Below the pieces are notes generated by a model. It worked only from the letters and a program-made list of their open reading frames with translations, was not told the DNA's origin and did not search any database. A DNA stretch of 5,299 nucleotides from Desulfobacterales bacterium. GTDB taxonomy: Bacteria; Desulfobacterota; DSM-4660; Desulfatiglandales; Desulfatiglandaceae. The translations under genes were made by a program, and so were the position numbers. This document shows positions 1 to 5,299 of the stretch, in pieces. Location of the stretch: assembly GCA_022013615.1 (NCBI GenBank), contig JAKLQB010000449.1, positions 1 to 5,299 of the forward strand, written 5' to 3'. How positions within the stretch are numbered: the first letter of the stretch is position 1; every line of letters starts with the position of its first letter.

Positions 1-2427
1 CCAAGCCTTTGTTCTCATCCGGATCTTCCCCAGGCTGAAGGAATTCAGGCGGCAAAGGTGATATACCAGGGTGAACGTAAGATTGAAAACGCCATGCCCG
101 AGGAAGCAGGAAAAGGCTGTGGCCTTTGTGTGGTGGAGGTTGAGGGTGAGACAGATCTGGTCAAGTCCTGCTCGACCGAAGTCCAGGAAGGCATGGTAGT
201 TATCACTGACAATGATCGGATCAAGGCCGAGCGCCAGGAAAATTTAATCCCTATACTTACTCGTCATCGTCATGCCTGCCTGACCTGTGCCCAACAGGAA
301 GGTTGCAGCCGGAGCCAATGCTCCTCTAATGTTCCGGAAAACGAAAGATGCTGCACACTGTTTGGCCACTGTGAACTCCAGAATGTGGCCAACTACGTGG
401 GTATCTCTCCTACAACACCAAAATGGGTGTCCACCGATCTTCTCGTACTTGAAAACCAACCCCTTTTTATAAGGGACTATAATCTTTGTATCGGTTGCAC
501 AAGGTGCATACGCGCATGCCGCGATCTCAGGGGGATTGAGGCCCTGGGCTTTGTGTATGATGAAAAGGGACAGGTCCAGGTGGGGACACTTGCCCCTACG
601 CTTGAGGATTCCGGGTGTAAATTCTGCACGGCCTGTGTTGAGGTCTGCCCTACGGGCGCTCTGATGGATAAATCCGTGCGACCGGGTAAGAAGGAAGAAG
701 ATATTGTCCCATGCAAAGAGGCCTGTCCTGCCCATATTGATGTTCCAGGGTATTTGAGACTGATCGCCCAGGGCAAAAGGGACGAGGCAAATGCAGTAAT
801 CAGGGAAAAAGTGCCTTTGCCTGGAATTCTTGGCAGGGTATGCATTCATCCCTGTGAAGATGTATGCCGGAGGGGAGAAGTAAATGGGCCCGTATCTATC
901 TGTGCTCTCAAGAGACATGCCGCTGACGGCGAAAAGGGGCTGTGGAAGAAAAATGCAAAGGCAGGGAATGATACCGGGAAAAAAGTAGCGATTGTTGGCG
1001 CTGGGCCTGCCGGTTTAACAGCGGCCTTTTATCTCAGGAAGCAGGGGTATGCAGTTACAATTTTTGACGGCCATGCCGAGCCTGGAGGTATGATGCGTTA
1101 TGGCATCCCTTCCTACCGCCTTCCTAAGGATATTCTGGATAAGGAAATTAATGAAATCCTGGACCTTGGAGTTGAGTTTAGGCCCAATCAGACCCTGGGC
1201 AGGGACGTTACCCTGGACCAGATAAAGAATGACGGATTTGATGCTGTATTTTTAGGTGTCGGCTTACAATCGAGCCGGCGTATCCCGCTGGAAGGATCTG
1301 ATCTGCCCGATGTTTTATGGGGCGTTGATTTTCTCAGACAGGTTGCGGAAGGAGAGGATATTCATCTCAAAAACAGGGTTATCGTGGTTGGAGGCGGCAA
1401 TGTGGCAGTTGACGTGGCCCTTAGCGCAATGAGATGCTGGGCCAATGATGTGACCATGGTTTGTCTTGAGGGCAGGGAGGAGATGTCTGCCCACGAATGG
1501 GAGATCCAGGGCGTATTAGACGAAGGTGTCCGTTTGCTGACTTCATGGGGACCGCACAAAATCCTGTGCGAAAATGGTCAAATCACGGGTATGGAGCTGG
1601 TTCATTGTGTGTCGGTATTTGATGACCAGTGCATTTTCAATCCCTCTTTTGACGATGCAAAGGAGAAGATAGAAGGAGATCAGGTTGTTTTGGCCATAGG
1701 CCAGGCGTCTGACCTGACATTCCTGGCAGATGACAGCCAAATTACTGTGGACCGGGGCCTTATTGTGGTAGACGAAGACACACTTGAGACTGGCATGAAA
1801 GGGGTCTATGCCGGTGGTGATGTGGCAGCAGTGCCAGGCGCTATTATTCATGCTATTGCTGCCGGGCGAAAGGCAGCATCATCCATAGCCGAGGCCCTGG
1901 GAGGCACAGGAGATATCGAGGAAGTACTGTTTGCAAGGGGTGCTCCTGATCAGCACATAGGCCGGGATGAGGGCTTTGCTTCATGGCCGCGTGAAAAGAT
2001 CCCTGAACTTGAATTGAAGGCAAGACGCCAGGGATTTCAGGAAGTGGTTTTAGGATACGAAGATGAACAGGCAATAAAGGAGGCCAGGCGTTGTCTCCAA
2101 TGCGATTTACGCCTATATCTTGAAAGTAACCCTTCTCCCCCTGAAAAAATACTGATCTTCAATGAGGAAAATATAAACCAGGTGCCTGAAGACGAGGGAG
2201 TATTTCAACTCTATGATGATGAAAAAAAGGTCATTTCCATAAAAGGGACCGGTACTCTGCGTCAGAGTCTGCTCGAAGCACTGGAAGATTATGAAAACGC
2301 TTCCTGGTTTGATTTTGAAGAAGATAAGATGTACTCCCAACGGGAAAGTGAGTTGATCCAACAGTACCTTCAGAAGCATGGTGAAATGCCTGGAGGGGGA
2401 GATTCCGATCTGGATGATCTGTTTTAG
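1..2427 (+). CDS. NuoG/GltD-like NAD(P)H-dependent FAD and iron-sulfur oxidoreductase, 5' end missing
   Basis: Cytosolic flavoprotein predicted to move electrons between NAD(P)H and an Fe-S chain. The frame is open from base 1; the GTG at 58 is internal because the first [2Fe-2S] ligand, C4 in SLCSHPDL, precedes it. Residues below count from base 1 (808 seen). In order: NuoG-type [2Fe-2S] ligands C4, C40, C43, C57; a His/Cys domain with H89, C93, C96 and C124 (CELQ) split by a cysteine-rich insertion; two [4Fe-4S] motifs, C163/166/169/173 and C206/209/212/216; a GltD-type Fe-S domain with C238, C242, C281, C285, C289, C301; FAD Rossmann motif GAGPAG at 333-338; pyridine nucleotide motif GGGNVA at 464-469, with strand-end E490 where GltD has basic residues, hinting at NADH; FAD-closing GGD at 605-607; a CLQC pair C698/C701. 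From about 726 the tail resembles a degenerate GIY-YIG domain. NfnB and GltD share only the flavin half. Family assignment is firm; physiological partner and nucleotide preference are inferred. Confidence 0.9.
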   Translation, partial: PSLCSHPDLPQAEGIQAAKVIYQGERKIENAMPEEAGKGCGLCVVEVEGETDLVKSCSTEVQEGMVVITDNDRIKAERQENLIPILTRHRHACLTCAQQEGCSRSQCSSNVPENERCCTLFGHCELQNVANYVGISPTTPKWVSTDLLVLENQPLFIRDYNLCIGCTRCIRACRDLRGIEALGFVYDEKGQVQVGTLAPTLEDSGCKFCTACVEVCPTGALMDKSVRPGKKEEDIVPCKEACPAHIDVPGYLRLIAQGKRDEANAVIREKVPLPGILGRVCIHPCEDVCRRGEVNGPVSICALKRHAADGEKGLWKKNAKAGNDTGKKVAIVGAGPAGLTAAFYLRKQGYAVTIFDGHAEPGGMMRYGIPSYRLPKDILDKEINEILDLGVEFRPNQTLGRDVTLDQIKNDGFDAVFLGVGLQSSRRIPLEGSDLPDVLWGVDFLRQVAEGEDIHLKNRVIVVGGGNVAVDVALSAMRCWANDVTMVCLEGREEMSAHEWEIQGVLDEGVRLLTSWGPHKILCENGQITGMELVHCVSVFDDQCIFNPSFDDAKEKIEGDQVVLAIGQASDLTFLADDSQITVDRGLIVVDEDTLETGMKGVYAGGDVAAVPGAIIHAIAAGRKAASSIAEALGGTGDIEEVLFARGAPDQHIGRDEGFASWPREKIPELELKARRQGFQEVVLGYEDEQAIKEARRCLQCDLRLYLESNPSPPEKILIFNEENINQVPEDEGVFQLYDDEKKVISIKGTGTLRQSLLEALEDYENASWFDFEEDKMYSQRESELIQQYLQKHGEMPGGGDSDLDDLF

Positions 2428-3703: not shown

Positions 3704-5299
3704 ATGGAAAAAAGAATAGGCGTTTACGTTTGCCACTGCGGGCTAAACATTGCTGCCACAGTTGATCCGAAGGATGTAGCGGAATCTGCTGCTTCCCTTA
3801 ATGGAGTTGTGTTAGCCCGGGATTATATGTTCATGTGCTCCGATCCAGGTCAGGAGCTAATTCTTAAAGATATCAAGGAACACAAACTTGACAGGGTGGT
3901 AGTGGCTGCATGCTCTCCTTTAATGCACGAACGTACTTTTCGCCGTGTTTGCCGTGAGGCCGGAATAAACCCCTATTTTTTAGAAATCGCCAATATCCGG
4001 GAGCATTGTAGCTGGGTTCACGATGATGGGGCTACTGAGAAGGCCAAAGAGCTTGTTAGGGCAGCGGTCATGAAGGCTTACTATGACGAACCCCTGGAGA
4101 CAAGCGAAGTTTCCATCAATCCGAACACCCTTGTTGTAGGAGGCGGGATTGCCGGAATTCAGGCAGCCTTAGATATAGCCAACGCCGGCTACAAAGTTTA
4201 TCTGGTTGAGCGTGAACCCTCCATTGGTGGGCATATGATTCAGCTTGATAAGACATTCCCTACGCTTGACTGCTCTGCCTGCATCCTGACACCGAAAATG
4301 AGCGATGTCGGGTCCCATCCTAATATTGACCTTCTATCCTATAGCGAGGTTGAGGAAGTCTCAGGAAGTATAGGTGAATTCAGGGTCAAGATCAGGAGGA
4401 AGGCCCGTTATGTGGACGAGGACAAGTGCACAGGATGTGGCCTTTGTATGGACGTATGCCGTTTGAAGGGCCGTATACCCAGTGAATTTGATTTGGGTTT
4501 AGGAAAAAGAAGTGCTATCTATACCCCTTTTGCCCAGGCTGTGCCGAATAAACCTGTGATTGATCCTGAGCACTGCCTCATGCTGAAAAAAGGTAAGTGC
4601 GGCAAGGAAGGGCCAAAGTGCGTTGAGGCATGCGGGCCGCAGGCGATCGACTTCGAGCAGAAAGATACGTATCTGGAACTTGATGTGGGGAGCATTATCC
4701 TGGCAACCGGCTATGACCAGCATGACCCCTCGGCTGTGCCACAGTACGGATATGGTAGATACGACAATGTCATCAGCGGATTGGAATTTGAGCGGCTTTC
4801 AAATGCCGCAGGCCCAACCGAAGGACAGATCTTGCTCAAGAACGGCCAGACACCCGAGAGTGTTGCCATTATTCATTGTGTGGGCAGTCGGGATAAGAAT
4901 TTTCACGAATATTGCTCCAGGGTATGCTGCATGTATGCCCTCAAGTTCGCCCACCTGATAAGAGAGAAGACTAACGCCGACGTATACCAGATGTATATAG
5001 ATATGAGGTGCTTTGGAGAAGGGTATGAGGAGTTCTATGAGCGCCTCAGTACCGAGGATGGGATAATGTTTATCCGGGGTAAGGCCTCCCAGGTTACCGA
5101 CCGGGCCCAGACCAAGGAGGAAAAAGGGAAGCTGACCGTATGTGTAGAGGATACACTATTAGGGAAATTTATCCGGGTGCCGGTGGACATGGTTATTCTC
5201 TGCGACGCCCTTGAACCGAGAGCAGACACAGAGCAGACAGCCAAGGTTTTCTCCATCGGCCGGAGGGCGGATGGCTTTTTCATGGAGAGGCACGTTAAG
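3704..5299 (+). CDS. hdrA: HdrA-like FAD/iron-sulfur electron-bifurcating subunit, 3' end missing
   Basis: The frame starts at ATG 3704, with GGGG at 3695-3698 as a modest ribosome site, and stays open through 532 codons to the window edge. Residues 1-125 match the HdrA N-terminal domain: VYVCHCGLNIA with C10/C12, C45, C70 in ACSP, and NIREHCSWVH. An FAD-binding thioredoxin-reductase-like domain follows, with GGGIAG at 146-151, IGG at 174-176, and the diagnostic stretch around 181-199 (LDKTFPTLDCSACILTPKM, C190/C193). An inserted ferredoxin has C242/C245/C248/C252 and a second set C291/C299/C306/C310 with unusual spacing. The flavin domain resumes with C392 in HCVGSR and C404/C408/C409 in YCSRVCC, which supply an extra [4Fe-4S] cluster in structurally known HdrA. 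In Hdr complexes HdrA bifurcates electrons at its FAD between ferredoxin and the HdrBC arm. The final FAD-binding segment and any C-terminal ferredoxin or fused MvhD-like domain lie beyond the window. QmoA is a relative but lacks this N-terminal domain; BamE of benzoyl-CoA reductase clusters is another. Confidence 0.92.
   Translation, partial: MEKRIGVYVCHCGLNIAATVDPKDVAESAASLNGVVLARDYMFMCSDPGQELILKDIKEHKLDRVVVAACSPLMHERTFRRVCREAGINPYFLEIANIREHCSWVHDDGATEKAKELVRAAVMKAYYDEPLETSEVSINPNTLVVGGGIAGIQAALDIANAGYKVYLVEREPSIGGHMIQLDKTFPTLDCSACILTPKMSDVGSHPNIDLLSYSEVEEVSGSIGEFRVKIRRKARYVDEDKCTGCGLCMDVCRLKGRIPSEFDLGLGKRSAIYTPFAQAVPNKPVIDPEHCLMLKKGKCGKEGPKCVEACGPQAIDFEQKDTYLELDVGSIILATGYDQHDPSAVPQYGYGRYDNVISGLEFERLSNAAGPTEGQILLKNGQTPESVAIIHCVGSRDKNFHEYCSRVCCMYALKFAHLIREKTNADVYQMYIDMRCFGEGYEEFYERLSTEDGIMFIRGKASQVTDRAQTKEEKGKLTVCVEDTLLGKFIRVPVDMVILCDALEPRADTEQTAKVFSIGRRADGFFMERHVK

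Follow-up and report, generated by a model that had tools for sequence, protein, structure and literature searches.

A catalytically degenerate GIY-YIG domain at the C-terminus of BzdV-type flavoproteins: a candidate docking module for electron donors of benzoyl-CoA reductase

Electron donors of benzoyl-CoA reductases and the flavoprotein of the window

The route by which low-potential electrons reach ATP-dependent benzoyl-CoA reductases is poorly settled beyond a few model organisms. For the bzd-type clusters, the accessible text of one report gives BzdV as a putative NADPH:ferredoxin oxidoreductase (PMC5658619), and the accessible portion of another describes korAB together with bzdV as a ferredoxin-regenerating system, with an Hdr-IFO complex encoded immediately after the reductase genes (PMC5736913). 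In an Asgard archaeon, according to the available part of the paper, a BzdV gene shares its contig with a ferredoxin and with BcrABCD genes (PMC8163825), and a strain without the Nfn-like protein AadN is described, in excerpts, as having a growth defect on benzoate while growing on cyclohexane carboxylate (PMC9973337).

According to excerpts of one study (PMC5890173), the chloroplast glutaredoxin GRXS16 has a GIY-YIG domain that cuts DNA, and its two domains are proposed to be joined by a disulfide. In the available portion of a 2006 survey of the GIY-YIG superfamily (PMC1564403), the terms oxidoreductase, flavoprotein, inactive and glutaredoxin are absent. A search of the open-licence literature, outside which most subscription papers lie, returned no paper pairing GIY-YIG with benzoyl-CoA reductase, and none in which DUF7508 is mentioned; for inactive GIY-YIG fusions it returned a single entry, on a phage-defence nuclease.

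The stretch of DNA analysed here (5,299 nucleotides, hereafter the window) contains three genes, all on the + strand, encoding a flavoprotein, an HdrD-like protein and an HdrA-like protein (Table 1). It begins inside the flavoprotein gene, and the genes upstream of that flavoprotein lie outside the window. The flavoprotein frame runs uninterrupted between base 1 and a stop at 2425-2427, giving 808 amino acids of a protein cut at its 5' end; its near-identical relatives P0002-P0005 have 840 amino acids. The FAD/NAD(P) and Fe-S domains expected of a BzdV-type donor are present by Pfam. In the N-terminal module, PF13510 and PF12838 score over their cut-offs and PF10588 just below, and the flavin part matches NF009410 in NCBIfam with 472 bits, under the cut-off of 516. 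The strings quoted in the initial annotation of this DNA, its CLQC pair and its residue numbers (S746, K748, S756, E782, E784 and the DSDLDDLF peptide) are correct as given. Its C-terminal placement of the extra domain, past CLQC, also holds, with a start slightly earlier than proposed, at about residue 717 (base 2149).

Table 1. Features of the window, with nucleotide positions and residue numbers counted from base 1
Feature	Position	Strand	Description and basis
Flavoprotein gene	1..2427	+	5' end cut by the window; NuoG-like Fe-S, GltD-like FAD/NAD(P) and GIY-YIG-like tail; Pfam and 840-aa relatives
N-terminal electron-wire module	103..660	+	2Fe-2S, residues 35-71; 4Fe-4S, residues 118-136 and 163-220
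NfnL/GltD-like flavin part	709..1866	+	Fer4_20, residues 237-311 (PF14691); Pyr_redox_2, residues 327-622 (PF07992)
CLQC pair	2092..2103	+	Residues 698-701; sequence reading
GIY-YIG-fold tail domain	2149..2391	+	Residues 717-797; Pfam DUF7508, structure models, profile alignment
E782 codon	2344..2346	+	Aligned with the UvrC catalytic Glu; identical in 86/86 tails
Acidic C-terminal peptide ending DDLF	2401..2424	+	L807 in 84/86 and F808 in 82/86 tails
HdrD-like protein, 380 aa	2551..3693	+	Two CCG stretches, Fer4; Pfam, NCBIfam
HdrA-like flavoprotein	3704..5299	+	Cut by the window end; Pfam, NCBIfam

Among the clustered loci (L020-L099), an HdrD and HdrA pair directly after the flavoprotein is otherwise seen only in L028. 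There (L028:3780-4600, genome G011) the flavoprotein copy is broken, with only its end remaining and a stop just past CLQC; the tail frame is still open despite that stop, and HdrD and HdrA come next, as in the window.

A catalytically degenerate GIY-YIG domain

The tail comprises about 80 residues past the flavin domain and CLQC. It is matched at E <= 0.001 by 395 proteins, the window's own included (at least 120 of them listed), and its dN/dS is 0.12 against L020 and 0.10 against L021, compared with 0.23 and 0.24 for the preceding 300 codons. Given these matches, the dN/dS values and six invariant positions (vide infra), the tail is not a chance stretch. Whether homologues always carry it had been raised by the initial annotation; distant GltD-like plasmid proteins lack it. 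For these, similarity stops at query residue 701-709 in 13 of the 15 matches listed, and none of the 138 plasmid records matching the query covers 80% of it. Because the distant matches end there, the tail is best described as an addition to the flavoprotein.

Two models were predicted for the tail alone, as a single chain, and both have the order b-b-a-b-a with a three-stranded sheet (b1 733-738, b2 744-750, a1 753-763, b3 769-774, a2 778-793). Their top structural matches in the PDB are GIY-YIG domains, the highest or joint highest being 2lwf, entered as a plant glutaredoxin, which we take to be GRXS16. The initial annotation had called a degenerate GIY-YIG fold and had named a model without the three-stranded sheet, or a profile match to an unrelated family, as contrary outcomes; neither occurred, and the eight weakest matches of the tail profile are themselves UvrC-type.

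Sequence comparisons lead to the same family. In Pfam the window tail matches PF24348 (DUF7508) with 32.8 bits against a cut-off of 26, and 60 of the 63 members of tail set A1 match that model at E <= 1; the window tail has no direct match to PF01541, and besides DUF7508 only two weak unrelated rows appear at E <= 1. Profile-profile alignment with hhalign joins 63 tails to ten UvrC domains over 73 columns (probability 82.6, E 9.6e-6), and 79 tails to 19 UvrC-type domains over 44 columns (probability 95.6, E 1.1e-8), while 15 control families taken from these loci reach a probability of at most 0.7 and E >= 0.08. L109, one of the 19 UvrC-type domains, is located at residue 211 of its frame, perhaps as part of a UvrC-like fusion. 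The relative P0248 has YIG at the right place and scores over the PF01541 cut-off (27.2 vs 22.6 bits, E 4.9e-6). When 198 genomes from the phylum of G001, presumably Desulfobacterota, were searched with a tails-only profile, the 15 matches comprised six clear tails, eight weak matches, all with the UvrC YIGKA/YVGKA motif, and one further match in G432 (E 1.7e-7) with an internal stop. The DUF7508 matches in 41 genomes related to the window divide similarly into nine tails and ten proteins with YIGKA/YVGKA (n=19).

Other searches were less informative. A single tail searched against PDB sequences found nothing convincing, VioF appearing at E 0.17; with the A1 profile, the PDB yielded matches to the GltD-type CLQC stretch, to a repetitive chain named E8 and, weakly, to a few others, which are uninformative on fold; and no NCBIfam model matches the tail. 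Fold and homology together identify the tail as a GIY-YIG domain that is catalytically degenerate, corresponding to Pfam DUF7508 and homologous to the UvrC N-terminal domain, and both its fold and its kinship with UvrC-type domains can be regarded as close to certain.

The DUF7508 model itself scores UvrC-type proteins over its curated cut-off, as in three that were read (L140, L143 and L144; for example 35 bits in G328). DUF7508 therefore probably belongs with GIY-YIG, with a cut-off that lets UvrC in, and a Pfam family that carried no annotation is thereby placed in the GIY-YIG fold.

Conservation was assessed over 86 aligned tails, namely 78 from L020-L099 (L048 and L065, missed by the motif search, being left out), seven flavin-less forms and the window. 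G733, I747, G749, E782, G794 and P797 are identical in all 86, R781 is R or K in all 86, and E784 and Q787 are each found in 85. In the 63-tail hhalign alignment of 73 columns, E782 falls opposite the UvrC catalytic Glu and G794 opposite its Asn; the stronger 44-column alignment stops short of that helix. The retained acidic residue, for which the initial annotation had offered E782 or E784, is thus E782 by profile alignment. Of the four positions it had considered lost, three are lost throughout the set: Arg is found at the catalytic site (756) in 0/86 tails, Gly at the YIG site (748) in 0/86, and the Asn site is Gly in 86/86. The YIG Tyr (746) is mostly lost, being kept in 11/86. Outside the set, G023 has the Arg and P0248, as above, has YIG. 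Among the residues of an active GIY-YIG nuclease, the Glu of the last helix is the one retained in all 86 tails.

The tails are also acidic. When the acidic end is counted, their mean net charge is -12 (range -19 to -3; window -16); when it is left off, the mean is -7.8 (range -16 to +1; window -12). The 19 UvrC-type domains, by comparison, average +7.2. The DDLF end is itself conserved (D806 in 78/86 tails, with L807 and F808 as in Table 1), and the predicted models place it outside the fold, at low confidence. That the tail is still a nuclease or a nucleic-acid binding or sensing domain, in the manner of UvrC or GRXS16, would agree with the GIY-YIG fold and the invariant Glu, and the GRXS16 domain cuts DNA as a fusion with a redox protein, according to the accessible part of that study (PMC5890173). 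Such activity is nevertheless very improbable in view of the lost Arg, Gly, Asn and, mostly, Tyr, the reversal of charge, and neighbouring genes that concern aromatic reduction. A nuclease role was set aside on the catalytic residues and the charge. Of the roles suggested in the initial annotation, docking or a structural function fits best, and nucleic-acid sensing is disfavoured by the negative charge and the catalytic losses.

The conservation of E782, G794, P797, E784 and Q787 goes beyond the need of a plain docking patch, and the Glu, being invariant, could have been kept for binding a metal or ligand instead of for docking. The tail might accordingly sense a small ligand or bind a metal through this Glu and the RESELIQQ helix, gating electron flow allosterically. 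This is quite unlikely, as neither Pfam nor NCBIfam places the tail in a ligand-binding family, and cysteine is absent from 65 of 78 tails. A disulfide switch like that of GRXS16, considered unlikely for the same lack of cysteine, was also set aside.

Distribution, neighbouring genes and natural dissections

A contig scan confirmed 187 stretches, of which 80 loci were kept. By their titles these come from Desulfobacterales and other deltaproteobacteria, Thermoplasmata, Methanomassiliicoccales, Archaeoglobus and Hermodarchaeum, as well as from Ignavibacteria, Bacteroidetes, Chloroflexota, Planctomycetota, Zixiibacteriota, Acidobacteriota, Gemmatimonadota and others. The gene order seen most often is bzdN, bzdO, bzdP, bzdQ, ferredoxin, flavoprotein.

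For the upstream counts, L028 was left out, its flavoprotein not being intact, and 22 other loci had too little upstream sequence. At least 1.5 kb of sequence precedes the flavoprotein in 57 loci. Of these, 44 have a BcrAD/BzdPQ-type ATPase upstream within 6 kb on the same strand and 13 have none, and a ferredoxin is upstream in 21. Divided by locus title, the ATPase is upstream in 11 of 19 deltaproteobacterial loci and in 33 of the 38 others. Where at least 5 kb was available (46 loci), 25 have the ATPase and both HgdAB-type subunits, 31 have at least one such subunit, and nine have no such ATPase. Ten neighbouring proteins were scored against NCBIfam: bzdO was over the cut-off in both of two loci and bzdQ in all of three (L043, L087 and L023), bzdN was over it in L043 and below it in L087 (425.5 vs 453.8 bits), two BzdP-type neighbours were assigned to CoA_E_activ, and the ferredoxin neighbour matched no family. 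Two of the tail proteins listed, P0130 and P0189, bear the name BzdV.

A neighbourhood with aldehyde ferredoxin oxidoreductase-like genes and a small Fe-S protein near the tail protein is seen in L033, L048, L055, L061, L068, L074, L082 and L089, the first of which also has HdrD/HdrA-like genes. Four of the oxidoreductase-like proteins were scored, and NCBIfam assigned them only to aldehyde ferredoxin oxidoreductase, below the cut-off. Together with the Hdr-like genes they suggest a possible link to class II benzoyl-CoA reductase, which is offered as a lead.

Co-occurrence with bzdO varies between lineages. In 196 genomes from the phylum of the Archaeoglobus genome G042, presumably Halobacteriota, nine match the tail strongly, and bzdO scores over the cut-off in exactly these nine, on the same contig as the tail; the corresponding Fisher value of 1e-15 overstates independence, the nine being probably close kin. 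The one further match in those 196 genomes (E 6.4e-4) is a DUF7508 protein (G200, L111). In the 198-genome sample, six genomes have the tail, seven have bzdO at E <= 1e-60 (three over the cut-off), and four have both. The two tail genomes with no bzdO match are G001 and G411, and in G411 both ATPases adjoin the tail protein despite the missing match. The three of seven bzdO genomes with no tail are G267, where bzdO is over the cut-off and near a contig end, and G291 and G427, where the bzdO matches are weaker and below it. Of 41 relatives of the window, several of them incomplete genomes, 12 have the tail and just three of these have bzdO at E 1e-60; in G041, bzdO and the tail gene are some 370 kb apart and no ATPase adjoins the tail protein. 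Within the family of the window, the bzd link is thus loose, and the catalytic subunit is often not seen.

Several genomes provide what amount to natural dissections of the system. Six genomes from the Archaeoglobus phylum (L127, L128, L129, L132, L133 and L136), together with G432 (L162) and G014 (L171), encode a form from which the flavin domain is absent and in which the tail directly follows the Fe-S module; L132 corresponds to protein P0241 (363 aa), named Geoglobus acetivorans. A protein search with this flavin-less form gave 21 matches at E <= 1e-20, 18 of which are 318-374 amino acids long and aligned over at least 96% of the query. Immediately before the gene for this form, a BcrAD-type ATPase is encoded in L162 and L171 by blastp, and in L127 and L129 by reading. 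The catalytic genes may be missing instead: by tblastn, the tail protein of L034, L039, L047, L161 and L168 is preceded by bzdP and bzdQ, with bzdN and bzdO not found in at least 5 kb further upstream, and L168 belongs to a genome (G023) that is 100% complete. L036 has both ATPase genes and only a bzdN fragment (tblastn), and by clustering L079 and L090 have the ATPase without HgdAB-type genes. The units that stay together are the Fe-S module, the tail and the ATPases, and this constancy points to the ATPase (activator) side as the partner.

The same arrangement bears on whether the tail could act within its own chain, or in dimerisation, to stabilise the Fe-S part with no outside partner, as in the forms read the two share one chain whether the flavin domain is present or absent. 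This is unlikely, since distant GltD-like proteins manage without the tail, and a conserved acidic DDLF end lying outside the modelled fold suits an outside partner better.

A docking role and comparison with described systems

The family at large is very likely linked to electron supply for benzoyl-CoA reductase; for the window's own protein the link is probable. The degenerate GIY-YIG tail itself is probably a C-terminal docking module of BzdV-type donors to class I (ATP-dependent) benzoyl-CoA reductase and related systems, and docking, taken separately as the function of the tail, has about an even chance of being correct. The tail would not cut nucleic acid but would dock the Fe-S/flavin donor to an acceptor, for which the BzdPQ ATPase/activator, or else its ferredoxin, is the likeliest candidate. 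Docking would use the conserved RESELIQQ helix at the end of the fold together with the acidic DDLF end, and low-potential electrons would thereby be passed on in a protected complex. In the window, the HdrD- and HdrA-like proteins may be a further electron partner. It is tentatively suggested, at somewhat less than an even chance, that a retired DNA-repair nuclease fold has become an obligatory adaptor that picks and holds the electron donor of BzdPQ, and that it has travelled with BzdPQ through many bacterial and archaeal phyla, outliving the flavin domain or the reductase catalytic genes in some lineages. A conserved non-catalytic tail also offers a handle, to be cut, tagged or swapped, toward the real partner.

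Among the described donors, BzdV of bzd-type clusters is close, given the name on two tail proteins and the bzdNOPQ-ferredoxin-flavoprotein order in relatives of the window, and the Hdr-IFO complex, as set out in the accessible portion of its report (PMC5736913), recalls the HdrD-HdrA pair. AadN of Rhodopseudomonas palustris resembles the window flavoprotein as an NfnL/GltD-type protein proposed to feed benzoyl-CoA reductase; it differs from the tail proteins as a fusion of large and small NfnI subunits, with no such tail mentioned in the part of the paper available (PMC9973337).

A likeness to the tail is also found in small DUF7508 proteins of the Archaeoglobus phylum (L110-L126), whose Pfam cut-off the window tail passes. 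There the DUF7508 match ends open frames of 81-575 codons, just past a Met, and these are probably separate proteins of about 80 amino acids, in genomes that we infer to be haloarchaeal. They also look like degenerate GIY-YIG domains but, unlike the tail, show no RESEL helix on reading.

The UvrC N-terminal GIY-YIG domain (PF01541; PDB 1yd6, 1ycz) shares with the tail its fold, the order of strands and helices, a GVF/GVY start, an L-R after the second strand and a Glu in the last helix, in addition to the profile match at E 1.1e-8. The tail departs from it in the lost catalytic Arg, YIG Gly and Asn sites and the mostly lost YIG Tyr, in a shorter segment between a1 and b3, in its acidity, and in its fusion to an electron-transfer protein. 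In this last respect it resembles GRXS16, the plant chloroplast glutaredoxin with an N-terminal GIY-YIG domain, from which it differs in the loss of catalytic residues and, for most tails, in having no cysteine. GRXS16 is the one parallel found for a GIY-YIG domain on a redox protein, as far as the accessible text of its description goes (PMC5890173), and the tail proteins provide a prokaryotic parallel to this plant GIY-YIG/glutaredoxin fusion.
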